Source: Acholoe squamosa | Lineage: Eukaryota > Annelida > Polychaeta > Phyllodocida > Polynoidae | Direction of reading: 5' to 3' | Assembly: GCA_949317995.1 (NCBI GenBank) | Contig: OX439045.1 | Location: 41,311,693-41,375,692 of the forward strand | DNA length: 64,000 nt | Part shown: positions 1 through 61,372 of the stretch, piece by piece | Layout: every line of letters starts with the position of its first letter | Position numbering within the stretch: position 1 is the first letter of the stretch | Notes under the pieces: model-generated | Databases searched by the model: none | The model's input: only the letters and a program-made list of their open reading frames with translations | What the model was told of the DNA's origin: nothing | Position numbers and translations under genes: made by a program

Positions 1-1234
1 GTGCTAGAGAGAGTAGATGCAGTAACAGTACAATACATGTATATGCAGCCAAACAGGGGCCTAGGGTCATCATGCCTGACAAGCGAGTGAATGAAGACAT
101 TCACCAACTGCCATATCTTCACATTGTTGTTCTCATCTGTGCTATCTCACCTTACATATACACTCTATCGTATTCCTTGTATTCTACTATATTTACATTA
201 ACACCAAAAAAAGTAACTCTAAAATCTCACCCCACGCCATGACTCTTGATTCAAAGAAGCTATGGGTTTTTTTTTGTTTTTTTTTAACTTGAAATTACAT
301 GTATCAAGGTTGTGCATCACAGAATCACCACTTTCGTGGAGAAAATTCCTTTTAGAGTCTATAGGCTCTAAGCTCTAAAATTTATATATGCTCCATAATC
401 CACACAACTTCATCCAGTCTTAGGCACTAATTGCTTAACCCATAAGATAAGCTGTATACAAATGTACTTTAATTTGAGATTATATTGTCCACCTACCTTG
501 GTGTGCGTCTCGGTGTACACTGCAGATCTAAGTGGAGACTAAGGTAAAGTGTATATACATGTATGTATGTATCTTCTGCCTTATCTAATCTGTGTGGAAA
601 AGGGGTTATCTATGGTGCTGCTGTACACTGGATCCAAAGATGACTTCCAACTTACAAATAGAGATTAGTATTATCAAAGTAGCGTATGCTGTATGATATA
701 GGGCACATAGCTATCCCTGTATGGAGGTCGCCATTTTGGTTTTTAGCCCCTGATGCCATCTTGGATTCTGTCAGGGAATTATGGGTAATCTCTTATCTTC
801 ACTCTCATCCACCACAGAACAATGGTCACTGATAAGACTGATAGGGGAGATAAGCTGCACCCTGTCCTTTATCTTAATCACCCTAATTGCCTCCCCATTG
901 TTTCAGGTGTAAGGGGAGAGGCTTAACTTGATAATGAGAGAATATCCTGGGTGTACTCAATGTGGGTGACATGTGGTCTCTTATTGAAATCTTAAAGTTG
1001 TATTTCTCTTGTATTTAAAGTATCAGATACTATGCTTATCTAGTAAAAGTTGAAGGTTTTTGCTATCCAAAGATATGAATTTTATAGAATATCTACAGAT
1101 AGTACATGAGGATGAGACCATCAAAGTTAACTATACAAAGAGGCTAATTGTAAGTTTAGCCCCGACTACATGAGCCACCTGGCAGTTTTTCTTATCACTA
1201 GCAACGTGCTAGTCCCGTATACGCCGTGTGTATC
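1..1234. other. Non-coding, no feature recognised
   Basis: AT-rich sequence with T-runs at about 265-285. No gene, transposon end or tandem repeat seen. Confidence 0.5.
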
Positions 1235-1435
1235 ATATAGGACTTGGTATATGGAGGCTTAGTGGAGTCAACATCTTGAATTTCGCTGGTTGAGCTAAAA
1301 CCCACTGATAAGACATAACATGATGGGTACCTTGTACCTGGTTAACACCCACTTCCAGGGACATGCTGGTCCCATTTGATCAGTTCTTATCAGTGTGTGT
1401 CGCTGGAACCAGCTCCAGACCAGCTAGTCGCTAAT
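1235..1435 (-). repeat. Dispersed repeat, copy 1 (inverted relative to 28.3 kb)
   Basis: About 200 bp alignable with 28318-28520 on the other strand, sharing CCAGCTCCAGACCAGCTAG and CACCCACTTCCAGGGACATG. No coding frame or clear termini; class unknown. Confidence 0.7.
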
Positions 1436-2258
1436 AGAATAACCCATCATACATTCCATGTTTTACAGTAGGGTACATCTTGGTCACCGACTTGGCAATG
1501 ACAGAACCTATACACATAGATCATATTTAGTGAGATTATCTTACATCTACTGTAGCTGATAAGAACATTTGGAAATGCGTTGTTTAAAAGTAACCCACTC
1601 ACCCACTAACGGAGATTCCGTTTTTCATGGATTAGTGAGTTTTCGCGTGAGGACATAAATCTTTACGGCACCCCCGCCTTCGATTAGTTATCAGCAGGTT
1701 TTTCTTTGTTATTTTTTTTTATGTTTATTTTTTGCTGAAAATTGGTGAATTATTTTCCTTTCTTTTTGCCGCCCATCCTCCTCCGATCCACGGAACCCTA
1801 CTCCCCCCCCCATCTTGATATAAAGTGAGCTCTCCCTTAATCTAGGAGACATTGACCTAGAAATGTATCTTGAGTTATCCATTTCTATATGTTGTGGCTT
1901 GTCTTTTCCTATCTCTGACACCCTGCTTTCTAGCTATTGTTTAAACATGCCTCAAGTACAATTACTTGTGTTATCAGTGTTTACTTTTGACATCCTGTAT
2001 TTCTTTAAAAGGCCCTTTGCTATATCCTTGATATGTTTCAAAAGATTATTTCAAGGTTTCATGAAGGGGTCAGACATTACTATACACTAGAACTCTGAGA
2101 GTTTCCGTGAATTATGACCATACTTGTCTTGCTGTTGTGTGATATTATTCATCGTAAGAGTTTTTAATTGAATAAATCTATATAACCAGCGACCAGCGGG
2201 TTATACCGATGTTGCATATGGTCCTGTGGACGCGAGTATCATAAGGGCTGCATCCACT

Positions 2259-5730: not shown

Positions 5731-6639
5731 CTATAACATCACATCTAGAGCTAATAAGTCCTGTTTAGAATCATGTAAATAATTATACACAACATTAGAT
5801 TTCCAATTTGCCCTCTTTTTAATATCATCGACCTTTAAACCAGAATCTTTTAACAAAGTTGCTCCACCATGTCGGAGTGAATGAGTTGAAACTCTGTAGG
5901 GAATACCACAGTCTATAGAAATGGACTTCAACCTGGTATTAACATAGTTATAAGTCAAAGGTTTGTTACCTATAGTGAACAATGATCCACTGTTAGATTT
6001 TTTACAAATTTTCAAATACCTAGCTGGACATAGACCAGAATAATCATTTCTCTTCAAATATACCACATAAGGTTTCCTACCATACTGGTCAGTTTTAGAA
6101 GATCTAACATCAATGCGAATGCAATCAACAGATAAAGAGATATCTCTGGATTTAAAGCTATGAGGGGAGTCCACTACATGACCCACTCTAAACACACCTC
6201 GGTAACACAAAAGGATAGCTGACCAGAAGACTACATCCTCATACACAGACAAATTCAACTTAGATTTGATCTTCAGCATATCACCTGGAGTCAAAGGATT
6301 AGTTTTAATAGAAGAACATTTATAATTACGTTCAATACCATCCAGTGTCTTTTTTACAATAAAATTACTACTATAATCAGAATAACCTTTTAATTTCTGA
6401 TAATACCATAACGCGGACAAATAGTTCCGAACAGATACAGGTTTCATTTTATCTGATAAATATACACCATACAACGAAGCTTGAGAAGGAGAACACGGTA
6501 GGGGACTAAAATTAAAAGTTTTACAAAATTTTTTGTACCTGCCAAACTGCTGTTTGCGAACCTTACGTGTGGACTCAGCCACGCCCCTGTACAAAAACCT
6601 TCTCCTTCTCCGCTCCAGCTCCCTCAGATCTGGAAGCAT
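5731..6639 (-). CDS. YR: Tyrosine recombinase of the Ngaro element
   Basis: 302 residues, typical size for a DIRS-order recombinase. The N-terminal part (about 15-100) resembles the SAM-like core-binding domain of phage-type integrases (SVRNYLSALWYYQKLKG near 69-84). The catalytic half shows the family set: Arg in YRGVFRVGH (R151 best fits), the H-x-x-R box in THSLRHGG (H253, R256), W279 in the usual third His/Trp position, and nucleophile candidates Y285 or Y287 in VVYNYLHD. The enzyme is known in this order to insert the circular DNA copy without a target duplication, and the element ends here agree with that. It is the last ORF, overlapping the RT ORF by 65 nt in a different frame. The first Met lies in that overlap, so frameshift or reinitiation is possible. 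Confidence 0.94.
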   Translation of the reverse strand: MLPDLRELERRRRRFLYRGVAESTRKVRKQQFGRYKKFCKTFNFSPLPCSPSQASLYGVYLSDKMKPVSVRNYLSALWYYQKLKGYSDYSSNFIVKKTLDGIERNYKCSSIKTNPLTPGDMLKIKSKLNLSVYEDVVFWSAILLCYRGVFRVGHVVDSPHSFKSRDISLSVDCIRIDVRSSKTDQYGRKPYVVYLKRNDYSGLCPARYLKICKKSNSGSLFTIGNKPLTYNYVNTRLKSISIDCGIPYRVSTHSLRHGGATLLKDSGLKVDDIKKRANWKSNVVYNYLHDSKQDLLALDVML

Positions 6640-8497
6640 AGCAACACATGTTATAACTAGTTAACACATTTTTACATTTCAGAGGAACACCTTTGTAATC
6701 TAGTCTAGACAAATGGTCTGCTAAAACATTCTCCTCAGATTTAATATATGTCGCATATATTTCAATATTATGTATAAAACATAGCCAAAAAATTTCCCTC
6801 AGCCAGGACATACACAATTTATTCCTGGATCTACCAGTGTTCAACATGGCCAAGACCTGCATGTTGTCAGTAATACAATGAACTCTAGTGTTGGAGAACT
6901 TCTTCACCCAGCGTTTAAGACCTACCATAACCGGGTAGAGCTCGTACACATTAATATTCCTATGATGAACTTTCAGATTATCAATTTTTGGGGCCTGAAC
7001 AAAATGACCCACACAGTCCAACATAGGGTTAGAATCAACCCAGGTACCATACAAATAATCCTTATCAAACCAGGCTCCAAAACCCCGTATAGACGAATCA
7101 GAATACATAGGGGTACATTCGTTATCATTCAAAATGATATTTTTGCAATTGAAAATTCTACAGAAATCCCTCCACCATAGCAGGTCATTTTGGGTTTCCT
7201 CATTAAGTTTAATAACACCCCTATTCCTGGCCCTTGCACAAAGATCAAACAGTCTCCTGCTGAAGGTTCTACCACCACGTACTACCTGGGAACAAAAAGA
7301 CATCAAACCACCAATCTTCTGCAATGTCTTCTTAGATACGAATTTCTTACCCAAACACTCGTCTATAGCTGTAGTCATTTTATCTAACTTACTCTGGGGG
7401 AGCGACAACTCCATAACAGTAGAATCAATGGTTATACCTAGAAAAGTACACACCTGGCTGGGCTCAGTCACCTTCTCTTTAGATACCACGAACCCTAAAT
7501 ATTCCATACATTCAATCAGGGTGTTCCTTTTACGTAAACAATCCTCTTCAGTATGGGCTATGATAATAAAATCATCCAGGTAATTTACTATCCTATCTAC
7601 ACCATAAAATTTTGCAATAATAGTCAAAAAATCAGATATTCTACTAAATATATATGGAGCACACTTTAGACCAAATGTCAAACGGTTACTTTCAAAAAAC
7701 TCATCTCCATTACCAAGATTCCACCTGAAGCCTTGATAGCCTACATGTGGGCCATAAACGTTAATACTTCTATAAGCAGATTTTAAATCTACTACACACA
7801 TAAAGTCGTTCCTATCAAGTTGGCAGGTAACAGTGCTAATAGAGTTATACGAGAAGCTTTTGGACGTTGTACTCATAAAGTTATTAATAGAGATATCCGC
7901 AGGCATACTGCAGTCAGTGATGGGACGAAGCTTACCATTAGATTTTTCCACACCCCCTAGGGAGTGAATACATTTGGGTTTAGATTCAGTTTTTGTAACC
8001 AGGCCCTGGTTCAACTCCTCCACAATAATACCACACATCTCGTTGTAAAATCTACCTTCTAAAATAGACTTATAATTTTTACAATCATATGTTGTATCAC
8101 ACCCTGGGTCCACTATTTTGAAACCCTCGGTAAAACCACACCATAGAAAATCAGACTCAATCTGATTGATATTAATAAGGTCTGACTGTCTAAGAAAACT
8201 AGCAAGTCGACACGGGAGTATCTGAGCCCTCCTACCATAAATGAAGTGCTCACACATACATATACCGTTAATACAACTGTCATAGACCCTGATGCTGGGT
8301 CTATTTAAACATTCCACCGTAAAAAGTGGTTCAACCTCACCCTGTACTGGGCAGCTATGGGAAATAAACAAATTCTTTGATAGATCACAAGAATTAAAAA
8401 TATTTACATTATCATTATTAACATTATCACCCGGAATGATAGAAACGGGTGGCTCAGGAAGGTCTACCATACATACTACACTAAAATCAGGCATCAA
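6575..8497 (-). CDS. pol: DIRS/Ngaro reverse transcriptase - RNase H polyprotein
   Basis: 640 residues. An N-terminal part of unknown role (about 1-180) precedes the reverse transcriptase. Visible RT motifs are the template-grip segment GKLRPITDCS (about 188-197), catalytic Asp in VVDLKSAYRS (D237), LTFGLKCAPYIF (about 273-284), and the YLDD box at 306-309. RNase H follows with its acidic residues in place: D467 (YSDSS), E519 (YELYP), D544 (ITDN) and D594 (ADHLSR). Together these domains copy element RNA into DNA and degrade the template. There is no protease or DDE integrase and no methyltransferase domain, which separates it from DIRS1 and PAT-like elements. It overlaps the recombinase ORF by 65 nt in another frame. 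The start taken is the first Met, which is unproven because no conserved domain begins there. Confidence 0.95.
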   Translation of the reverse strand: MMPDFSVVCMVDLPEPPVSIIPGDNVNNDNVNIFNSCDLSKNLFISHSCPVQGEVEPLFTVECLNRPSIRVYDSCINGICMCEHFIYGRRAQILPCRLASFLRQSDLININQIESDFLWCGFTEGFKIVDPGCDTTYDCKNYKSILEGRFYNEMCGIIVEELNQGLVTKTESKPKCIHSLGGVEKSNGKLRPITDCSMPADISINNFMSTTSKSFSYNSISTVTCQLDRNDFMCVVDLKSAYRSINVYGPHVGYQGFRWNLGNGDEFFESNRLTFGLKCAPYIFSRISDFLTIIAKFYGVDRIVNYLDDFIIIAHTEEDCLRKRNTLIECMEYLGFVVSKEKVTEPSQVCTFLGITIDSTVMELSLPQSKLDKMTTAIDECLGKKFVSKKTLQKIGGLMSFCSQVVRGGRTFSRRLFDLCARARNRGVIKLNEETQNDLLWWRDFCRIFNCKNIILNDNECTPMYSDSSIRGFGAWFDKDYLYGTWVDSNPMLDCVGHFVQAPKIDNLKVHHRNINVYELYPVMVGLKRWVKKFSNTRVHCITDNMQVLAMLNTGRSRNKLCMSWLREIFWLCFIHNIEIYATYIKSEENVLADHLSRLDYKGVPLKCKNVLTSYNMCCYASRSEGAGAEKEKVFVQGRG

Positions 8498-8539
8498 AAT
8501 ATCAGAATCTAATGCAGGACCTTGCCTAAGTGAAATTTC

Positions 8540-9568
8540 CTAGTCTTTCTTGTTCTTTTGACATTTGTCTTTACCATGGTTTGACATGCTACAAATCTCA
8601 CAAATATGACGATACCTGCACGGGTCCTCCCTGCAACCCTCGGCTCTGTTGAAAGCATAACAGGTTCGGTTGGATTGTTTTGATTTGAAAGACTTAGGTT
8701 TAGACCCACCCGCCTTCTGCGCTTGCACCGTTCCGTCATAAGACAGGTGCCTCAAAATATCCTCACTTTTAACATCGCCAAACGATCCAACACCTTCAAA
8801 ATTAGCCCTATTCTTGACCGCTGAATCGTATGCTACGAGAGCCTTCAACGTGTATATCCTGGTAGAAGATTTCTCTACCAGAACTTCAATATGCTTAACC
8901 ACATCGAACACGTCTTCACCCTCCTCTAACAATTGCTTAACCATTCTGACGTTAACGATCAGTAGTTTCTCGATACTGTCCATTTTTTCACCTTTTTTCA
9001 AGAAATTTTTCTGGTCAAACGTACCTCTAGACTTTGTAGCATGTCGATGATTACTCCTTGAGGCATTAGATCCAATAGAACCCGATGAATCCGTCGAAAC
9101 ACTACGGTACGAAGAAGACCTACTCGAAGATCCAAGATGGCGACGACCTGCCCTGTCGCCGTGGAGACCCCGGTAGTCAGGCGAGCGCTGTCGGCCCCGC
9201 CCCCGTTGCTTGGTTACCATGTTGACTGTGGAATGTTTATCAACACCACCACGTGCACGACCTGTCTCAGTCTCGCCAGTCGCTGCTGAAGTACTTGTTC
9301 GATTAACCGCCTGGTTCTCCAATAAAGACCGGATATTTTCGAGCTGCTGCTCCATACGAGTAGTACGCTCTTCCAGCTCCCCGATATACGTCTGGTCAAC
9401 AGGTAAATCCAATGAACCCCCAGTAGCGGTTGGGGAAGATGATCCATGACCACCCCCATTGGAATCTACACTGCTCGATATCCTAGAGTTGGCAATATTC
9501 CCTGGTTTTTTAGGCGACTTCTTGGTCTTGGACCTTCGTGTGCCGCTAGTTGTTCCTTTCCTACCCAT
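8540..9568 (-). CDS. gag: Gag-like protein of the Ngaro element
   Basis: 342 residues. The first 60 or so are basic and Ser/Gly-rich. A helical stretch follows near residues 60-90 with acidic and basic side chains (possible coiled coil), then an Arg/Ser-rich segment, then a more folded-looking region from about 190 to 280. The C-terminus carries two zinc motifs: C303-x8-C312-x4-C317-x3-H321, of CCCH shape, and C323-x2-C326-x4-H331-x4-C336, of retroviral-knuckle shape. By position (first ORF after A1) and zinc motifs it should be the nucleic-acid-binding structural protein of the particle. The rest of the sequence is not recognisable, as is usual for gag. The first Met is at 9568, 46 nt inside A1. 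It ends 42 nt before the first Met of the RT ORF, so the RT must be reached by reinitiation, a spliced message or another route. Confidence 0.85.
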   Translation of the reverse strand: MGRKGTTSGTRRSKTKKSPKKPGNIANSRISSSVDSNGGGHGSSSPTATGGSLDLPVDQTYIGELEERTTRMEQQLENIRSLLENQAVNRTSTSAATGETETGRARGGVDKHSTVNMVTKQRGRGRQRSPDYRGLHGDRAGRRHLGSSSRSSSYRSVSTDSSGSIGSNASRSNHRHATKSRGTFDQKNFLKKGEKMDSIEKLLIVNVRMVKQLLEEGEDVFDVVKHIEVLVEKSSTRIYTLKALVAYDSAVKNRANFEGVGSFGDVKSEDILRHLSYDGTVQAQKAGGSKPKSFKSKQSNRTCYAFNRAEGCREDPCRYRHICEICSMSNHGKDKCQKNKKD

Positions 9569-9614
9569 AATGATAGGTTAAACACCGTATTAACTTGGAA
9601 AAACGGATAAAACC

Positions 9615-13434: not shown

Positions 13435-13506
13435 GACATTTGATTAACCCTGATGAAGGCACATGTGCCGAAACTATTGGTTCAAATTGGCTGAATAAAT
13501 GTCCTC
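13435..13506 (+). ncRNA. Hammerhead-like ribozyme motif, intact core boxes; PLE remnant
   Basis: CTGATGA at 13450-13456, an extra A, stem II GGCA/TGCC around CATG (13458-13469), then GAAAC at 13470-13474. Flanks GACATTT (13435) and AAATGTC (ends about 13503) can pair as an outer stem I. An AATAAA (13495) and a later A-run (13560-13569) suggest the 3' end of a retroelement. The cleavage side fits only loosely (GTT). The extra A before stem II departs from the minimal consensus but is shared by all motifs in this window. Confidence 0.5.
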
Positions 13507-50246: not shown

Positions 50247-51424
50247 TCTAAACGCAGGGTTTTACGATACACATGTGTGTCAAAAGGATGAGCAATATGT
50301 CCTGGCCTTGCCCAGGGATGAGTCTGGATGCAGTCGACCACTTCCAATCTGATTGGGGTGTTTGGCAGATGGTATTGTCATCACACAAGACATATGGGGA
50401 GCTTCACAGCCAAAAAGGCAGTCTCTTGAGAAGAATAGATTTTCTTTAAATTCAAGACTTAAATGGCACATATGATTATGAGGCCTTTAGCGTGGCATTC
50501 ACTTAGCCCTGTTTTTTTTTTACTATCGCTTATCTCATTCCACTAAAGTTCCCACTAATTGCATAACATTGTTATCATCTTTCCACTTAGCCTATTTATG
50601 TTCCCCTCAATTGGATTATGTTAGGCGCGTCGACAGCTTTCCATTGCCTCAATAAATAAGTTTAGATAATGAGCTTCGAGAGGCCCTCCACAAGAGCCAG
50701 TAGCGTCATAACTGTAGGATCTAGGGCACCTTCATTGTGATCTTGAGAAAATTAGATGAAAAAGATTTATAATCCCCCTTGCCATTTTGAGATATTTGTT
50801 AGACTAGGACAGGGCCAAGAGCCAACTAAAATCGAAATGCATTTGAATTAAACTGTAAGCAAAAGAGCGTTTGTTACATCAAGGGAAATCCTCGGGTTGT
50901 ATTACAATATAAATGCTTATTAGTATGCCACATTTGAAACAAATTATTCTTCAATCTTGAATCTTACTCAACCATAAACTGAGCCAGCCGTCCTTGCTAA
51001 AGTGAATTTGCATGGTAATACAATCTCAAATCAAGATGCAGTGTCATACAGAAAGCTCTACTTTTTAAATGTGGATCCCATTGTAGTCAAACTCTTCTCC
51101 GATGAAAGCCTGTACGGGTCGGGAGAAAAGTGGGCAATATTGACCATTTTAGATATTCTTTTTCCACCCGGAGCTGTACAGGCCTTTATTTGGGAATGCT
51201 TGGAACCCACTCTTTATCATATATGTCCATTGCCAAAACAGCAAAATTAATCACAAAATAACTAGCTTGATAATATCTAATATTGCAGCTGCTGCAACTT
51301 ATTAGTGCACACTGCTGCTGATAGATTCCGCGGATGATTTACATAAGGGACAACAAGATGACCTATCACTAAGACACAGGTATAAACAGAATATGCTGAC
51401 CAGGGGGTGATCATATGATAGGAG

Positions 51425-52159
51425 GATGGATAGAAAATACAGCGGGAGAGATCCTAATACCCAATCCTACTATTGATGACATAGTCTACATCTGGTTGAA
51501 TAAATATCGGTGCTACATGTGTTATAAATTGCGCAGTGAAGTGTCCTGGGGGATTATAAAGCAAAGCAATAAATAAATATTGCATGAGTCAAGAACTTTT
51601 AGGCACAGATATCTCCTATGCCGTTGTTATTTCTCCAATAGTTCCCCTCAGAACAGCGTGACAGGTGTTTTTTTTTTTCACAACCATTATCCATGTTGGG
51701 GACAGCAGTCCAAAAGCTTTTATTGAATTCTGCATCCACTGACAACTTAAATATTTTCAATAACCAAAAACGGTCTGAAAGTTCATGAATATTTGAAATG
51801 TTGACCAACTTAACGACCAGAGGTGCCACTCACTGGCCAACGAACACCAGGAAAACTAGACTTTGGACACATTTTTCCAGGAATTTAACATGAATTGATA
51901 TAGAAATCTTGGAATCAAATCCAGAAAATCCTGGTAAACCAGGAAAAGTGGAATCTCTGACGACGTAATAAAAAGAAGCTTTAGTCGCGGGATTCTTCCC
52001 TCTTCTTATTTTCCCTCCCGTCATCCTATCCCACGTATTTGCCACTAATTTCACAAGACTGTCTCTTTTTTGTCATCATCCTGTAATAGAGTTTTATACT
52101 GTTCTCTTAATTATTTAAAAAAAAAGATGGATAGAAAATACAGCGGGAGAGATCCTAAT
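51425..52159. repeat. 34-bp direct repeat pair flanking a 667-bp segment ending in A9
   Basis: 34 bp at 51425-51458 recur exactly at 52126-52159, immediately before the PLE pseudo-LTR. The 667 bp between them hold no recognised gene and end in TTTAAAAAAAAA. Either the PLE 5' junction copied nearby target sequence, or the segment is a retroposed piece with its own long duplication. Confidence 0.8.
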
Positions 52160-52162
52160 TTT

Positions 52163-52507
52163 CTCTCTAACGTTGGTATTTATTAATTAAGAATTCTGAG
52201 GTCACCAATTTTAGGAGCCTTCTCAGTCATTATTCCAATCCCACTGATTTGGGAGTCATTTACAATCTATGTGTTGCCACTACCACCAATTGTTTACTAT
52301 GGAACAAAAATTTTGGTCAGGCCTGCATAAGGCTCCCAACCACTAATAAGGTACTTGTTGTTATATTCAAATAAAACTAGCCTTGACAAAGGTCTGAAAA
52401 GACCGAAACATGTCGGCACTCTAGTATTCATTCTCCATGGATTATTATTATTTTTAAGTCACACGAGACACAAGAAAGGGTTTAGGGAGTATTTACCATC
52501 CTTCACA
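52163..52507 (+). repeat. Left pseudo-LTR of the PLE
   Basis: 345 bp, no difference by eye from 56652-56996. Contains a hammerhead-like fold at 52376-52425 with an AATAAA just upstream (about 52370). An open frame starting at 52355 inside this repeat runs into ORF1. The first bases follow a T-run whose length differs between the two copies (4 against 8 T), so the exact start is soft by a few bases. Confidence 0.92.
52376..52425 (+). ncRNA. Hammerhead-like ribozyme fold, left pseudo-LTR (core diverged)
   Basis: Outer stem ACTAG/CTAGT plus GCC/GGC; stem II GGTCT/AGACC closed by a GAAA tetraloop (52391-52404); then GAAAC (52405-52409), a 2-nt loop and GTC (52412-52414), the usual cleavage triplet. 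The conserved CTGATGA box is represented by TTGACAA. Relative to consensus, C3 is U and G8 is A, and both are catalytic-core positions. PLE pseudo-LTRs are known to carry hammerhead motifs. This copy looks like a hammerhead descendant that may be inactive. Confidence 0.55.
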
Positions 52508-52627
52508 ATATTTTTCCATATCCCCTTGGCATCCCCCGTGGGATCCTCTTTCATCGCTACACATAACAAATTTTGTTGTTTTCGGTTAGTCACCTCCCTT
52601 CACCGGGATTTACAACCCTCCATAAGC

Positions 52628-53374
52628 ATGGCTAACCAGAATCCATCTGTTGGATCACAACAAAATGGAGGAGTGCAAACTCCCCTCAGTAGCCACTCGT
52701 CTCGAACAGACATATCCTTCAATCCACGAGAGAATGAAAGGAAAAGAAACCGTACCGATTTTGAGGACGATGACACGCCATTCCGTAACCAAGGTCAAGG
52801 TCGTGGCAGGGGCAGGGGTCGAGGTCGCGGTCGCGGCCGCGGTCGCCCTGGCAACTATGACGCAACTAGTACAGACGCAACTAGAAGGCTCCCGCGCCCA
52901 GATACCAATCCACGCTTAGTGCAGATTTTGAATAACTCCAACAAAGTATGGTACAAAACCCTCAAAAAATTGGCCCTTGGTGTTACAAAGTGTACACACC
53001 ACTCTGATTTTCTCCAGTCACATTTGGACAAGAATACAAGCCCGAGAGGGCTACAGGTAAATGTCAATGCTCAAATTCCAGATATCACCGCTGAGTTCTT
53101 CATCAAATGGGAAACAGCCCATTGTGAGTTTAGCACACGACTAACCCTACTCCTACGTGAATTTTGGTTCTCTAGACAAACCAAATTACAGAAAGCCCTG
53201 GACCTAACAACCACCCAGATGAAAGAAAACTGTTCCACAGAAGAAAGTGAAATTATTCTAGAATGCATCCAGGAAGAGCAGAAGAAAGCGGCGAAGGAAC
53301 TCAAAGAAAAGGCAGAAGGCAAAATAGGCACTTCAGACGGCCCAACCAGTCCAACAACAACCCCAGTACTATAG
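52628..53374 (+). CDS. PLE ORF1: RGG-rich, basic N-terminal protein
   Basis: 248 residues from the Met at 52628 (MANQNPSVG...). The frame is open back to a Met at 52355 inside the pseudo-LTR, which would add 91 residues of less protein-like sequence, so the later start is preferred. After a Ser/Asn-rich lead comes a run of alternating Gly-Arg (an RGG/GAR box, encoded at about 52795-52850) likely to bind RNA. A Lys-rich region and a helical, charged C-terminal tail (EEQKKAAKELKEKAEG) follow. The segment with THHSDFLQSHL and SPRGLQV resembles what usually forms the N-terminal part of single-ORF Penelope proteins. It overlaps ORF2 by 112 nt, with ORF2 in the -1 frame, so ORF1 may be extended into the RT by frameshift, or the frame was broken by a recent indel. 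Confidence 0.75.
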   Translation: MANQNPSVGSQQNGGVQTPLSSHSSRTDISFNPRENERKRNRTDFEDDDTPFRNQGQGRGRGRGRGRGRGRGRPGNYDATSTDATRRLPRPDTNPRLVQILNNSNKVWYKTLKKLALGVTKCTHHSDFLQSHLDKNTSPRGLQVNVNAQIPDITAEFFIKWETAHCEFSTRLTLLLREFWFSRQTKLQKALDLTTTQMKENCSTEESEIILECIQEEQKKAAKELKEKAEGKIGTSDGPTSPTTTPVL

Positions 53375-55560
53375 TAAATCTGTCACAACATACCTTGACG
53401 GAGGATGAAATATCCCTCCTATCCAAAGGCCTCAGCTTTATTCCTACACCCAGTGACCCCCACCCGGCTCACACATTAAGGGACTGTTTATTCTTTACTA
53501 GAAAAATCAGGTTAAATGAATTCTTCAAGGAGGATGAATCCCCTCACAGGTCTGAAAATTTCAGACCAGATCTACCACCCAAGACCTGGACTCCACCATC
53601 GGGCAGGAACCAATATGTAGACTGCTACAACACATCCCTCACCCATCAAGTCATCACTCTGAATAAAACACATCACATAAAAGACAACCTAACACCTGGG
53701 GAACGAGCTGCCCTAAAGAACCTCTCTACAAATGACCAAATCATTATCAAAAGTGCAGACAAAGGAGGTGCAGTCGTGATACAAGATGTCACGAAATATG
53801 AACAGGAATGCCTACGCCAATTAGAAGACACTACCTTCTATCAAGAAATCGACTATAACCCGACAGCCTGTTTCAATCAGTCTGTAATACAAGAATTAAC
53901 TACCCTGGAAATACAGGGCCACATCACCAAAAAAGAGAAACTAGCACTGTCCAACAACTATCCCAGGACCCCGATCTTCTATTGCTTACCTAAGATCCAT
54001 AAACCTAATGTACCAGGCAGACCCATCGTCTCTGCTTGCAATGGACCTACAGAAAAAATCAGCTCCTATGTAGATAAGGTGATAAAACCACTAGCCCAGA
54101 GTCTCCCAAGCTACATAAAAGATACCACAGACTTTATCAACAAAATAGAGTCCATCCCACCTACTACCAACCATGAAGTACTAATGACAGTTGATGTGGC
54201 AGCACTTTATACGTCGATCCCACATGGAGAGGGCATCACAGCCTCAGTTGACTACCTAAACAGTAGGACAGTGAAGGATCCTCACACCTTTATTATTGCC
54301 AAATTGCTCTACACAATACTCCATACAAATGGTTTCAAGTTCAAGGACAGATATTTTGTACAAAAACATGGTACAGCAATGGGAACCAGAATGGCCCCCA
54401 ATTTCGCTAATCTATTCATGGGTTCTCTAGAGAAACAACTTCTAGAAAAAAGTCCAATAAAACCCAGAGTCTGGCTGCGTTACATCGACGATATATTCAC
54501 CATCTTACCAAGCTTAGAAGATGCACATACATTCCTGGGTTTCCTAAACAGTCAGCACCACTCAATTAAATTCACTGGTGAAATAAATGCAACGGAGGTC
54601 AATTTCCTTGATACTACAGTTTTTGTCACAGACACTGGCCTACTAAAGACAAAATTATACACAAAACCTACCGATGCTCACACATATTTGAACTTCCACT
54701 CATACCACCCGATGGCCTTAAAGCGCTCAATACCATACTCCCAGCTCATCAGACTAAAGAAAATTGACTTCAGAGAGGAAGACTTCAAGAGGGACAGCCA
54801 GAAATTATTATCATCCTTCCGCAAATATGGATACCCTAACAGAATCTTGAATGTGGCACTAGCCAAAGCAACAGCACTCAACCGGGACGACCTATTACAC
54901 CCACCAGAAAAGGAAGACTCACCAACTGTAACCTACACTACAGAATACAACCCCAAGCACATGCCCATCCCCAAATTCATAAAGGAAAATCAAGCCATAT
55001 TAGGAGCAGACCCAGTCCAAAATGAAAAACACCCCCCTAGGATAATTATTGCCTACAAGAAGGCCAGAAATCTGAAAAACTCTCTAGTACACTCTCCACA
55101 CCCACACGTCTCACTGCCGCCAGGATGCCAACCATGTGGCAAATGCAAACATTGTAGAAGGGTCCAGACATCAAAAACCATCACCAGCTCATCCAATGGC
55201 AAATCATTCAAAATTGTAGGCAACAATACCTGCACCACCAACAATGTCATCTATGTCCTAACCTGCACCAAATGTGGCAAACAATACGTCGGACAGACTT
55301 CTCATGCAGCGAAAAAACGCCTAGGCCAACATTTAGGAGGCATTGACCCAGAGTTGAAAAACCGCCCCATCCCAAGACCAGAACAAGAAACACCTGTGAC
55401 TGAACACTTCAATACAGCGAGGGGCTGTGGCCCAACAAGTATCATCATGCACATCGTGGATAGCACAGCACAATCCACTGCAGCGTTACTACGACTCGAG
55501 GAGGCATGGATACGTCTCTTAGCAACCTGGTACCCTTCGGGTATCAACGTCCAATCGTAA
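53263..55560 (+). CDS. PLE ORF2: Penelope reverse transcriptase with GIY-YIG endonuclease
   Basis: 765 residues. Recognisable homology begins about residue 39 (NLSQHTLTEDE, then LLSKGLSFIPTP), so the true start may lie after the Met used here or be reached from ORF1. RT motifs in order: KSADKGGAVVI; PKIHKPNVPGRPIVS (P243 onward); TVDVAALYTSIP with catalytic D311; GTAMGTRMAPNFANLFM (G370 onward); YIDD at 407-410; NFLDTTV (447 onward); and TKLYTKPTDAHTYL. A linker zinc motif has C622, C625, C628 and C631. GIY-YIG follows: VIYVL (I663, Y664), QYVGQT (Y675-G677), then LRLEEAWIR with E746/E747 as the metal-binding Glu. In this family the endonuclease nicks the target and the RT copies the RNA in place. 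No RNase H or integrase is present. The frame is intact. Confidence 0.96.
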   Translation: MHPGRAEESGEGTQRKGRRQNRHFRRPNQSNNNPSTIVNLSQHTLTEDEISLLSKGLSFIPTPSDPHPAHTLRDCLFFTRKIRLNEFFKEDESPHRSENFRPDLPPKTWTPPSGRNQYVDCYNTSLTHQVITLNKTHHIKDNLTPGERAALKNLSTNDQIIIKSADKGGAVVIQDVTKYEQECLRQLEDTTFYQEIDYNPTACFNQSVIQELTTLEIQGHITKKEKLALSNNYPRTPIFYCLPKIHKPNVPGRPIVSACNGPTEKISSYVDKVIKPLAQSLPSYIKDTTDFINKIESIPPTTNHEVLMTVDVAALYTSIPHGEGITASVDYLNSRTVKDPHTFIIAKLLYTILHTNGFKFKDRYFVQKHGTAMGTRMAPNFANLFMGSLEKQLLEKSPIKPRVWLRYIDDIFTILPSLEDAHTFLGFLNSQHHSIKFTGEINATEVNFLDTTVFVTDTGLLKTKLYTKPTDAHTYLNFHSYHPMALKRSIPYSQLIRLKKIDFREEDFKRDSQKLLSSFRKYGYPNRILNVALAKATALNRDDLLHPPEKEDSPTVTYTTEYNPKHMPIPKFIKENQAILGADPVQNEKHPPRIIIAYKKARNLKNSLVHSPHPHVSLPPGCQPCGKCKHCRRVQTSKTITSSSNGKSFKIVGNNTCTTNNVIYVLTCTKCGKQYVGQTSHAAKKRLGQHLGGIDPELKNRPIPRPEQETPVTEHFNTARGCGPTSIIMHIVDSTAQSTAALLRLEEAWIRLLATWYPSGINVQS

Positions 55561-55584
55561 CGTCCGTGACGTTACCCATACGTC

Positions 55585-56550
55585 ATGACGTCACAGTGGC
55601 GAAATACAAGCAACATGGACACCGGTTTCGCTTGTAGTATCTGTGACAAGATTTCCACCACTAAACAAGCACTGAGATTGCATCTAAATTCCTATCATGG
55701 GGAGACTAAAGTCAACTGTGCATACTGTGGATTAATTTTTGATAGGAAATCGAACCTTAATAGACATTTAAGGAGAAAACACCCAGATGAAAAACCGGAC
55801 CATGGAATATTATATCTCCCACCACCTCGACTGCAACCGACTGGGGCTGTCAACAAGAGATCAACATCCTACAAAAAAAGTAAGACTACAGCAAAATCAG
55901 AAAAACGATTGCAATATTTAAAAAAATGGGAAAAATATAATTTCTCCCAAAGTCCACTACCGCCGGTAAATTTTAGGATAACACCAGCCCCGACCCCCTA
56001 CACCTTGAAGCAAACACCGCCTTCTCCAGTCACCATCAATGGCATCACTAAACCAATGCACGGATTTTTCAACCCATTTAAAGGCAAAAAATCACATGTG
56101 AAAATCCACACTGACGCTACCTTCCTGCCCAAACAAGTCCCTACACGGGACATAGCCATGGATGACTACATGCAGCAAGTCGCCACCCACAACTTGAAAA
56201 TAGAAGCCTTGGACACCATGAAGCCCATCACCCCACAGAAACCTGGTACACCCATCATACCTTGGAGCCCTGAAATCCTGGCACCCATGGCAAATCTCAC
56301 TGAGAAAGACTATTCCTTCCTCACCATAGACGAAAGTACAGCGAGAAATGTACTAGGCCTACTTCCCACAGCCACATCGAGTCCTATACCATCCCTGGAG
56401 AACAAATCTGAAAACTGTGATATCTCTAACTGGGTGGAAATTCCATGGCCGGACAAGGAATACCCACCTGTCCCATTTGACAGTCCAAACCTACCTAGAT
56501 CCATTATGTCACGTGAGGATAGAATGACATATAAACCTCCGCAGCAATAA
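55585..56550 (+). CDS. PLE ORF3: C2H2 zinc-finger protein, unusual third ORF
   Basis: 321 residues, starting 24 nt after the ORF2 stop and lying wholly inside the element. Two classical C2H2 fingers sit at the N-terminus: C17-x2-C20-x12-H33-x4-H38 and C45-x2-C48-x12-H61-x4-H66. They are followed by a Lys-rich patch (KKSKTTAKSEKRLQYLKKW near 92-110) and a long Pro-rich, probably disordered tail to the end. A second Met at residue 11 leaves both fingers intact and is an alternative start. Fingers plus basic patch suggest DNA or RNA binding, perhaps targeting or chromatin contact, but that is inference. Typical Penelope elements encode only one or two ORFs ending in GIY-YIG, so this may be a captured host exon or a lineage-specific third gene. 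No stop interrupts it, which argues against passive debris. Confidence 0.8.
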   Translation: MTSQWRNTSNMDTGFACSICDKISTTKQALRLHLNSYHGETKVNCAYCGLIFDRKSNLNRHLRRKHPDEKPDHGILYLPPPRLQPTGAVNKRSTSYKKSKTTAKSEKRLQYLKKWEKYNFSQSPLPPVNFRITPAPTPYTLKQTPPSPVTINGITKPMHGFFNPFKGKKSHVKIHTDATFLPKQVPTRDIAMDDYMQQVATHNLKIEALDTMKPITPQKPGTPIIPWSPEILAPMANLTEKDYSFLTIDESTARNVLGLLPTATSSPIPSLENKSENCDISNWVEIPWPDKEYPPVPFDSPNLPRSIMSREDRMTYKPPQQ

Positions 56551-56651
56551 GTGATATATTCATGAGCAAACACCTGTGATTAACCTAACTTGTGATAACT
56601 CCTAGGAGAGTAGATGATCACCACCAAGGGCCTAGAGACAATATTTTTTTT

Positions 56652-56996
56652 CTCTCTAACGTTGGTATTTATTAATTAAGAATTCTGAGGTCACCAATTT
56701 TAGGAGCCTTCTCAGTCATTATTCCAATCCCACTGATTTGGGAGTCATTTACAATCTATGTGTTGCCACTACCACCAATTGTTTACTATGGAACAAAAAT
56801 TTTGGTCAGGCCTGCATAAGGCTCCCAACCACTAATAAGGTACTTGTTGTTATATTCAAATAAAACTAGCCTTGACAAAGGTCTGAAAAGACCGAAACAT
56901 GTCGGCACTCTAGTATTCATTCTCCATGGATTATTATTATTTTTAAGTCACACGAGACACAAGAAAGGGTTTAGGGAGTATTTACCATCCTTCACA
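56652..56996 (+). repeat. Right pseudo-LTR of the PLE
   Basis: 345-bp copy of the left repeat, ending at the same base before TTAAAAAAAAAGA. About 100 bp of non-coding sequence separates the end of ORF3 from it. Confidence 0.92.
56865..56914 (+). ncRNA. Hammerhead-like ribozyme fold, right pseudo-LTR (core diverged)
   Basis: Same sequence and same two core departures as the copy at 52376-52425. Being identical in both pseudo-LTRs, the changes predate this insertion and so belong to the source element. Confidence 0.55.
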
Positions 56997-57009
56997 TTAA
57001 AAAAAAAGA

Positions 57010-58214
57010 ACGGAGACGCAATGTCATAAACCTTTCACAAGAAAAGCTGATTTACTGGAGTTTGGTTTGATTGTTTTATCATTTTGCTTTAAGACTGAGT
57101 ATAGCAGCTAACCGTAAGAAATTCTGTCCAGGAATGTTGATCACATTTTGTGTGAATGTGTCATGATATCAAGACCTCTCATCTCTCTATAATACTATAC
57201 TACTGAAATACTGGGTGCATCTACTACACATTCATCCTGGGTGAATAATGACCTTATACCCAGAGAAACTTTGTTATATGTGACATGTACTGGGAAAAGG
57301 GGTCTTAGAACCCCCTGCACTAAGCCCCATTTTCGCAGATCGTGTCACATATTGAGCTGCTAATATCCCGTTTCTCCATATACTACTCTTTTCCAATATA
57401 TCTCTTGTTATCTTGACTTGTTTCTACATGTATACATCCTCCATCACTCTGTTTCAGCATCAGCCTTGGTCTGCTAATATCTCCATGTCCTTACAAATAT
57501 CAACTCTGTTACCTCAGTCTGCTCATAACTCATATAAATATACTACTCATATACAACATGCAAGTAAGCCTATGGACGGTTCATTAGTCTGCTCATATCC
57601 TATATAAAACTCAACAACAACTTTGGTAGGGAGTATAATACCATAGCCTGCTAATTAATACCCCCCATCTGCATAATATTACTCCTTGCCAACATCAGCT
57701 TTGGAACCTTAGCCGATAATCTAGTATGGTCTCTATTGAAGAAGACAGGATAAAGCTGGACGAAGACAGGGTATTCAGCTGGACAGGGTCACAATGCTTT
57801 TACCCTGCACTGTTAGGAAGATGTAAGCATACCCCTGGTGACCTTACGTCCTTGTTAGGAACAGTGACATCCGACAGGGCCAGATGCTCTATTTCCTGGT
57901 CAGTATCTAAATCCGGCTCGATGGGAACCTTCCAGCTTTGGCCTTAGGCAATGGATATTTCAATACTCCTCTGGATATTGGCTGTTTTCATATTAGTGTT
58001 AAGCTGTACACACTTCCTCAGGTACGAAAATTCTATGGCACAGGTAATCAATTATGGAAATAATCATGGAATAGTGGTGCATTCAGCATAGTCCTTCATG
58101 GGCGACATAGTCTAGTATTAAGCACTGGGGAATTCCTATCTGCCCCTTTGCTTCACTGAATTCAGAATGCTTCATATTACTAACGCCGAAAAGAGATATG
58201 TGGCATAAAAGAAA
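57010..58214. other. Non-coding, no feature recognised
   Basis: Sequence between the PLE and the 77-bp satellite. Short open frames lack domain signatures. Confidence 0.45.
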
Positions 58215-58516
58215 CCAGTCAGCACTCGCAGTCTCACGTAGCCCTGGGGAACTTACACAAACAATGTGTAGTGGTATCATTTAGCTGACACCAGTGTCAC
58301 AAGTCCGATTGGACAGGCCCCATATATAGCTTTGGGCACCAAGACAAACACTCTGTAGTGGTACCATTTACCTGACAATAATCAAGCTGTAAGACCCCAT
58401 GAAGGCACTCAGACAAACACTGTGTAGTGGTACAATTTAGCTGACACCAGTCAGGCTGTTCAGGTCCATATAGCCCTGGAGGCACTCAGACAAACACTGT
58501 GTAGTGGTACCATTAA

Positions 58517-58731: not shown

Positions 58732-61372
58732 TTAAGCTGACACCAGTCAGGCTGTTCAGGTCCATATAGCCCTGGAGGCACTCAGACAAACACTGTGTAG
58801 TGGTACCATTAAGCTGACACCAGTCAGGCTGTTCAGGTCCATATAGCCCTGGAGGCACTCAGACAAACACTGTGTAGTGGTACAATTTAGCTGACATTAG
58901 TCAGACTGTTCAGATCCATGTAACCCCGGAGGCACTCAGACAGACACTGTGTAGTGGTACAATTTAGCTGACATCAGTCAGACTGTTCAGATTCATGTAA
59001 CCATGGAGGCACTCAGACAAACACTGTGTAGTGGTACAATTTAGCTGACATTAGTCAGACTGTTCAGATCCATGTAACCCCGGAGGCACTCAGACAAACA
59101 CTGTGCAGTGGTACAATTAAGCTGACATCAGTCAGACTGTTCAGATCCATGTAACCCTGGAGGCACTCAGACAAACACTGTGCAGTGGTACAATTAAGCT
59201 GACATCAGTCAGACTGTTCAGGTCCATATAGCCCTGGAGGCACTCAGACAAACACTGTGTAGTGGTACAATTAAGCTGACATCAGTCAGACTGTTCAGAT
59301 CCATGTAACCCCGGAGGCACTCAGACAAACACTGTGTAGTGGTACAATTTAGCTGATACCAGTCAGACTGTTCAGATCCATGTAACCCTGGAGGCACTCA
59401 GGCAAACACTGTGTAGTGGTACAATTTAGCTGAAATCAGTCAGACTGTTCAGATTCATGTAACCCTGGAGGCACTCAGACAAACACTGTGTAGTGGTACA
59501 ATTTAGCTGATACCAGTCAGACTGTTCAGATCCATGTAAGCCTGGAGGCACTCAGACAAATACTGTGTAGTGGTACAATTTAGCTGACATCAGTCAGACT
59601 GCTCCGATCCATGTACCCTGGAGGCACTCAGACAAACACTGTGCAGTGGTACAATTTAGCTGATACCAGTCAGGCTGTTCAGGTCCATATACCCCTGGAG
59701 GCACTCAGGCAAACACTGTGCAGTGGTACAATTTAGCTGAAATCAGTCAGACTGTTCAGATCCATGTAACCCCGGAGGCACTCAGACAAACACTGTGTAG
59801 TGGTACAATTTAGCTGATACCAGTCAGACTGTTCAGATCCATGTAACCCTGGAGGCACTCAGGCAAACACTGTGCAGTGGTACAATTTAGCTGAAATCAG
59901 TCAGACTGTTCAGATCCATGTAACCCCGGAGGCACTCAGACAAACACGGTAAAGTGGTACAATTTAGCTGACATCAGTCAGTCTGTTCAGATCCATGTAA
60001 CCCTGGAGGCACTCAGACAAACACTGTGTAGTGGTCCAATTTAGCTGACACCAGTCAGGCTGTTCAGGTCCATATACCCCTGGAGGCACTCAGACAAACA
60101 CTGTGCAGTGGTCCAATTTAGCTGACACCAGTCAGGCTGTTCAGGTCCATATACCCCTGGAGGCACTCAGACAAACACTGTGCAGTGGTCCAATTTAGCT
60201 GACACCAGTCAGGCTGTTCAGATCCATATACCCCTGGAGGCACTCAGACAAATACTGTGTAGTGGTACAATTTAGCTGACATTAGTCAGATTGTTCGATC
60301 CATATGGCCCTGCAGGCACTCAGACAAACACTGTGTAGTGGTACAATTTAGCTGACATCAGTCAGACTGTTCAGATCCATGTAACCCTGGAGGCACTCAG
60401 ACAAACACTGTGTAGTGGTACAATTTAGCTGAAATCAGTCAGACTGTTCAGATCCATGTAACCCTGGAGGCACTCAGACAAACACTGTGCAGTGGTACAA
60501 TTTAGCTGACATCAGTCAAGCTATACAGGTCCATGTAACCCTGGAGGCACTCAGACAAACACGGTAAAGTGGGACAATTTGGCTGACATCAGTCAGACTG
60601 TTCAGATTCATGTAACCCCAGAGGCACTCAAACAAACACAGTAAAGTGGTCCAATTTAGCTGACACCAGTCAGACTGTTCAGGTCCATATACCCCTGGAG
60701 GCACTCAGACAAATACTGTGTAGTGGTACAATTTAGCTGACATCAGTCAGACTGTTCAGATTCATGTAACCCTGGAGGCACTCAGACAAACACTGTGTAG
60801 TGGTACCATTTACCTGACACCAGTCAGACTGTTCAGGTCCATGTAACCCTGGAGGCACTCAGACAAACACTGTGTAGTGGTACAATTTAGCTGACATCAG
60901 TCAGACTGTTCAGATTCATGTAACCCTGGAGGCACTCAGACAAACACTGTGTAGTGGTACCATTTACCTGACACCAGTCAGACTGTTCAGATCCATGTAA
61001 CCCTGGAGGCACTCAGACAAACACTGTGTAGTGGTACAGTTTAGCTGACACCAGTCAGGCTGTTCAGGTCCATATACCCCTGGAGGCACTCAGACAAACA
61101 CTGTGCAGTGGTACAATTTAGCTGACATCAGTCAGACTGTTCAGATCCATGTAACCCCGGAGGCACTCAGACAAACACTGTGCAGTGGTACAATTTATCT
61201 GACATCAGTCAGACTGTTCAGATCCATGTAACCCCGGAGGCACTCAGACAAACACTGTGTAGTGGTACAATTTAGCTGACATCAGTCAGACTGTTCAGGT
61301 CCATGTAACCCCGGAGGCACTCAGACAGACCCTGTGTAGTAGTACAATTTAGCTGAGATCAGTCAGACTACA

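Follow-up and report, generated by a model that had tools for sequence, protein, structure and literature searches.

A Penelope-like element of the annelid Acholoe squamosa with a probable accessory C2H2 zinc-finger gene downstream of its RT/GIY-YIG frame

The transposition of Penelope-like elements (PLEs) is described as poorly understood (PMC11167929), and how these elements meet chromatin or choose their sites is a question on which a separate DNA-binding gene would bear. In the Neptune clade the reverse transcriptase (RT) and the GIY-YIG endonuclease (EN) are joined in one open reading frame with a Cys-rich domain between them (PMC3846280), the elements have pseudo-LTRs (pLTRs), and there is an ORF1-type N-terminal part. 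Extra ORFs are reported for the Terminons, where they are of the GDSL, DEDDy, coiled-coil and TM types (PMC5408684, PMC6431247). Here we analyze a PLE located in a 64-kb stretch of the genome of Acholoe squamosa (the window) which has the order left pLTR, ORF1, ORF2, ORF3 and right pLTR (Table 1). This element shares the mentioned features of the Neptune clade but differs in that its ORF1 is a separate, overlapping frame and that an ORF for a C2H2 zinc-finger protein follows the endonuclease. On balance we consider it probable that the locus is a structurally complete Penelope-like retroelement of the Neptune type, probably a recent one, with three coding frames; ORF3 would be an accessory gene that is specific to this lineage and codes for a nucleic-acid-binding protein.

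Table 1. Features of the Acholoe squamosa PLE and of its insertion site; positions refer to the window
Feature	Position	Strand	Remarks
Left candidate TSD	52115..52127		13 nt, TTAAAAAAAAAGA; found by eye; matches 56997-57009
Filler at left junction	52128..52159		32 nt; copy of sequence ~700 nt upstream
Left pLTR	52159..52507	+	349 nt, identical to 56648-56996
Hammerhead-like motif, left pLTR	52383..52417	+	repeated at 56872-56906
ORF1	52628..53374	+	248 aa, RG-rich
ORF2	53263..55560	+	765 aa; RT, Cys-rich linker, GIY-YIG endonuclease
TGACGT/ACGTCA half-site cluster	55567..55593		4 hits, or 3 when the two overlapping ones of the perfect TGACGTCA are taken as one
ORF3	55585..56550	+	321 aa; two C2H2 fingers, basic and Pro-rich tail; alternative start 55615
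C2H2 finger 1	55627..55698	+	residues 15-38
C2H2 finger 2	55711..55782	+	residues 43-66
Right pLTR	56648..56996	+	349 nt, identical to left pLTR
Right candidate TSD	56997..57009		TTAAAAAAAAAGA; found by eye; directly 3′ of right pLTR end 56996

The element is bounded by identical direct repeats in the manner of the pLTRs of PLEs; the repeat search of the region 50500-58500 (repeats of at least 20 nt) shows 300 nt of this identity. Since ORF1 and ORF2 are intact and the pLTRs are identical, the element is probably recent, with the reservation that identical pLTRs say little about age in PLEs if one template gives both copies. Within the window there is no second copy of any of the ORFs or of the pLTR. 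Scanning viral contigs with ORF3 and ORF2 gave 6 and 9 pattern stretches, respectively, scanning with a 21-row alignment of ORF2 gave 73 stretches and scanning genome contigs with ORF3 gave 28 stretches, none of which was confirmed, and a tblastn comparison of plasmids with ORF2 yielded no match at 1e-5. Elsewhere in the window, the region 5731-9577 (−) contains three long stop-to-stop frames, of which one codes for an RT (RVT_1, 60.5 bits) and one for a tyrosine recombinase (Phage_integrase, 37.2 bits); the third has 345 codons and no domain. Together they presumably represent a DIRS/Ngaro-type element. A tandem array with a 77-nt unit lies at 58735-61369 (34.2 copies, 92% matches).

The insertion site is ordinary A-rich DNA, and the match between the two candidate target site duplications is therefore weaker evidence than its length of 13 nt implies. 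By analogy, such a site would be in keeping with the AT-rich cleavage preference of the Anolis PLE (PMC11167929). At the left junction an exact direct repeat of 34 nt (51425-51458 and 52126-52159, 701 nt apart) includes the GA of the candidate duplication. The 32-nt copy at this place is probably a templated filler, introduced at the junction which was closed last.

Both pLTRs contain a motif with hammerhead-like geometry and a minimal stem III, as judged from the fold and an assignment by eye. The fold of the region 52360-52430 has a z of −2.56, and 3 of 200 shuffled sequences were as good. Presumably a U/A pair takes the place where the usual C3/G8 core pair is expected, and there is no Rfam hammerhead match for the motif. 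The double change C3G/G8C is reported to restore cleavage in part (PMC11167929), and by analogy the motif with its swapped pair could be active. A loose pattern for the hammerhead core has five matches, among which those at 13450 (+) and 44593 (−), outside of the PLE, look canonical (CTGATGA, stem, GAAAC); neither has an Rfam match at the gathering score.

ORF2 combines RT (RVT_1, 38.1 bits, cut-off 29.6) and GIY-YIG (25.1 bits, cut-off 22.6) in one frame as is typical for PLEs, and having this endonuclease domain it is not of the endonuclease-deficient Athena/Terminon type. At least 3007 relatives were found at E ≤ 0.001 among the 7988 best-word-sharing candidates that were scored, the best with 42% identity. 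The best 120 of these 3007 relatives were listed, and 119 of them together with the window sequence form an alignment of 120 rows. The Pleurodeles protein P0012, which is part of the 21-row alignment, was left out here as an apparently duplicated or chimeric model. Between RT and EN the residues C625, C628, C631, C657, C668 and C671 are either invariant across the aligned relatives or conserved in 90% or more of them, and this Cys-rich linker, as found in Neptune-like PLEs, suggests that the element is of the Neptune type.

ORF3 had been described in the initial annotation as an intact frame of 321 codons which follows the RT/GIY-YIG ORF after 24 nt and codes for two fingers with the full Cys/His set, a basic patch and a Pro-rich tail, and our analysis bears out each of these points. 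The 24 nt are counted from the TAA stop of ORF2, and the right pLTR follows 97 nt beyond ORF3. The reading frame of ORF3 is that of ORF2, with an extra in-frame stop (TGA at 55567) in the gap. As read from the sequence the fingers are C17-x2-C20-x12-H33-x4-H38 and C45-x2-C48-x12-H61-x4-H66, joined by the linker GETKVN. Pfam zf-C2H2 (PF00096) matches in two stretches with an E-value of 2.3e-8 (34.5 bits, cut-off 25.2), and zf-H2C2_5, zf-C2H2_4 and a partial zf-BED (residues 40-67) are above their cut-offs at the same fingers. The basic patch extends from about residue 91 to 118. Neither Pfam nor NCBIfam indicates an enzyme domain above cut-off, the NCBIfam search giving a sub-threshold match alone (12.6 bits versus 508). 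A single-sequence AF2 model has a mean pLDDT of 40 with 276 of the 321 residues below 50, so the model neither shows nor excludes a further domain; the basic and Pro-rich tail is probably disordered.

Among the stop-to-stop frames of the window ORF3 ranks fifth in length. When its sequence was shuffled with preserved dinucleotides, the longest forward run free of stops had a mean of 83 and a maximum of 196 codons, and not one of 2000 shuffles reached 321 codons; an estimate with independent bases puts the probability of this length at 6.6e-8. With a codon model derived from ORF2, ORF3 obtains +0.10 in its own frame, as against −0.21 and −0.23 in the two remaining forward frames (z = 5.0, 500 shuffles). 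All seven overlapping sub-windows of ORF3 are positive; in the reverse direction two frames score below zero and one scores +0.03. The shuffles and the frame-specific codon usage lead us to reject a chance frame, and ORF3 is coding-like in this copy. Its AT and GC skews (0.25 and −0.23) resemble those of ORF2 (0.27 and −0.23), and outside of the element both values are reached, on either strand, by none of 571 overlapping and none of 59 non-overlapping scanning windows. The finger segment taken alone has a GC skew of 0.01, unlike ORF2, and the skew argument therefore rests mainly on the tail. With moderate weight the agreement in skew suggests that ORF3 has resided in the element for a long time.

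We compared the C-terminal ends of the related proteins. The view of the initial annotation that canonical elements end with GIY-YIG stands: behind the conserved GLN the tail has at most 25 residues in the 119 aligned relatives, and 117 of the 120 rows, the window included, reach the GLN column. ORF2 itself ends at this canonical terminus. A phmmer comparison of ORF3 with the RT/EN proteins of the 119 relatives returned nothing at E ≤ 10, and the domain annotations of the best 120 of the 3007 ORF2 matches include no C2H2 domain. A loose C2H2 pattern occurs in 28 of the 120 rows, in the Cys-rich linker or the GIY-YIG region and never in the tail. The short tails and the empty phmmer result lead us to reject that ORF3 corresponds to a C-terminal domain found in the aligned relatives.

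A separate downstream ORF is invisible in a list of proteins, and therefore the DNA of relatives was required. At this level 26 stretches were matched and two were confirmed. One of them (L001), with an RT that is 41% identical, has 3501 nt with identical ends of 77 nt, as would result from a PLE unit of 3424 nt that is circular or tandemly repeated, and is apparently the full repeat unit. Its RT/EN frame runs to 681, after which the next ORF1-RT frame starts at 1235. In the region 682-1500 (+) there is no ORF3-like frame, the only ATG frames of at least 30 codons having 48 and 32 codons, and tblastn with ORF3 gave as best match an E-value of 0.17 at 403-537, inside the RT/EN frame. The second sequence (L002) stops 261 nt past its RT/EN stop and contains no long frame there, this stretch being too short to decide. 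Thus ORF3 is absent from one out of one decidable relative. The initial annotation had named copies of the element without ORF3 as evidence against a third gene. L001 lacks ORF3 but belongs to a different family, and what is refuted is thus the generality of ORF3 in the group and not its conservation within the family of the window element. ORF3 is not general in this PLE group. L001 comes from the assembly of a Bathymodiolus symbiont and its DNA is probably that of the mussel; L002, also of PLE type, is from a Poribacteria MAG.

ORF1 matches the N-terminal part of a related protein (P0007), where this part is fused to the RT (phmmer E 2.9e-22), and the fused frame of L001 (E 1.2e-11); at E ≤ 10, nine of the 119 relatives are matched. 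Because ORF1 has these RT-fused counterparts, it is a shared part of PLEs and only ORF3 is extra. ORF1 would then correspond to the N-terminal part which some relatives carry fused to the RT, and it may have a nucleic-acid-binding role. In our element ORF1 and ORF2 overlap by 112 nt in different frames, and no slippery heptamer of the form XXXYYYZ is present in the overlap (53251-53374). In L002 there are likewise two overlapping frames, the first of which matches ORF1 only weakly (E 0.029).

We also inspected the junction of ORF2 and ORF3. The perfect palindrome TGACGTCA found there is, as we take it, a CRE-type (bZIP-type) site. The half-site TGACGT/ACGTCA occurs 23 times in the window, four times at the junction. 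When all hits are counted, this is the sole class among 1133 6-mer classes (with at most 30 hits each) that has four hits in 30 nt. With overlaps merged there are three hits in 30 nt, a value reached by eight of the 1133 classes, the one at the junction included, and the cluster is therefore only mildly unusual. As it was tested after being noticed, we treat it as a lead only; it hints weakly at a possible internal promoter. The RNA fold at the junction stands out only slightly (z −2.07, matched by 9 of 200 shuffles). The start context is stronger at Met11 of ORF3 (55615, AACATGG) than at Met1 (GTCATGA), so that the protein may start at Met11. Readthrough from ORF2 into ORF3 is unlikely because of the two in-frame stops. 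The route we prefer is that ORF3 would be made as a protein of its own from a short transcript starting near the CRE-type cluster, which would favour Met11; alternatively, it might be made by reinitiation after ORF2.

As to the function, our best guess from the sequence features is that ORF3 is an accessory nucleic-acid-binding protein. Its fingers may bind target DNA or the DNA or RNA of the element, and the tail could hold the ORF2 ribonucleoprotein at the bound site. Two C2H2 fingers contact about 6 bp. This is too short for a unique target, and tethering, chromatin contact or regulation would therefore be likelier than a new site specificity. In its full form, which we put forward only tentatively, the model is that a Neptune-type PLE lineage gained a C2H2 accessory gene with its own CRE-type promoter and that this separately made partner steers or tethers the ribonucleoprotein of the element's telomerase-like RT.

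The fingers of ORF3 resemble those of ordinary host C2H2 proteins (CTCF, ZNF568 and others), and ORF3 could thus be a passenger: part of a host zinc-finger gene that a template switch brought into this copy or into a recent ancestor, its frame open only on account of its youth and without a role in transposition. PMC6431247 mentions that host DNA is transduced by PLEs, and both the absence of ORF3 from L001 and the deviating GC skew of the finger segment would fit. A recent capture should, however, match a host protein along its full length. In a phmmer search of 5.8 billion proteins only one of 560 candidates was found at E ≤ 0.01, a multi-finger protein covering 15% of ORF3 with 35% identity, and for residues 70-321 none of 286 candidates was found at E ≤ 10. 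The PDB contains 94 distinct sequences with a match at E ≤ 0.01, the best being CTCF, and the best stretches (for the best 60 of the 94) all lie within residues 7-73. Since no host protein was matched along the length of ORF3, recent capture from a conserved host gene is unlikely. This holds for a word-based search which requires shared words of five residues, so that a fast-changing homologue of ORF3 could escape, and for a database in which the host's own proteins are possibly not included. Codon usage and the overall strand asymmetry of ORF3 also fit the element, and we regard this explanation as rather unlikely.

Still less likely in our judgement is that ORF3 is a regulator which binds its own pLTR or the palindromes at the junction and tunes transcription, or which counters host silencing. 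Two adjacent fingers with a short linker, the cluster of palindromic half-sites at the 5′ end of ORF3 and the lack of an enzyme domain above cut-off are what one would expect of such a protein; against it, TGACGTCA is presumably a bZIP-type site and no obvious target of these fingers, and the cluster is only mildly unusual after merging overlaps. That ORF3 is part of a second mobile element inserted into the PLE's 3′ UTR would agree with its absence from the RT polypeptides of the relatives and from L001, but we consider this very improbable. No repeat of at least 20 nt bounds ORF3 in the region 50500-58500. In this size range the region has the pLTRs and the left-junction repeat, an inverted pair upstream of the element and, beyond 57500, three families of direct repeats. 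Moreover, ORF3 is just 24 nt away from ORF2 and 97 nt from the pLTR, is in the frame of ORF2 and has a similar skew. The accessory gene is our preferred interpretation of ORF3.

Extra ORFs in PLEs as such are already known. The Neptune-like PLEs of fish and molluscs that bear an esterase (PMC5408684) have in common with our element that a protein function has been added, which is an esterase there and a C2H2 protein here. The Terminons or Athena elements of bdelloid rotifers also combine a PLE-type RT with several extra ORFs, but unlike the element from Acholoe squamosa they are endonuclease-deficient, associated with telomeres and up to 40 kb in size (PMC5408684, PMC6431247). PAc, the Poseidon element of Anolis carolinensis, resembles our element in its pLTR, RT-EN and AT-rich insertion sites and possibly in its hammerhead motif; it differs in belonging to the Penelope/Poseidon clade, in the single ORF given in its description and in having an active hammerhead with C3/G8 (PMC11167929). 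In the titles and abstract openings of the literature searched we found no PLE with a C2H2 ORF, which is no proof of absence. If ORF3 is conserved, it would extend the capture of genes by PLEs from the types described in PMC5408684 to a C2H2 protein.
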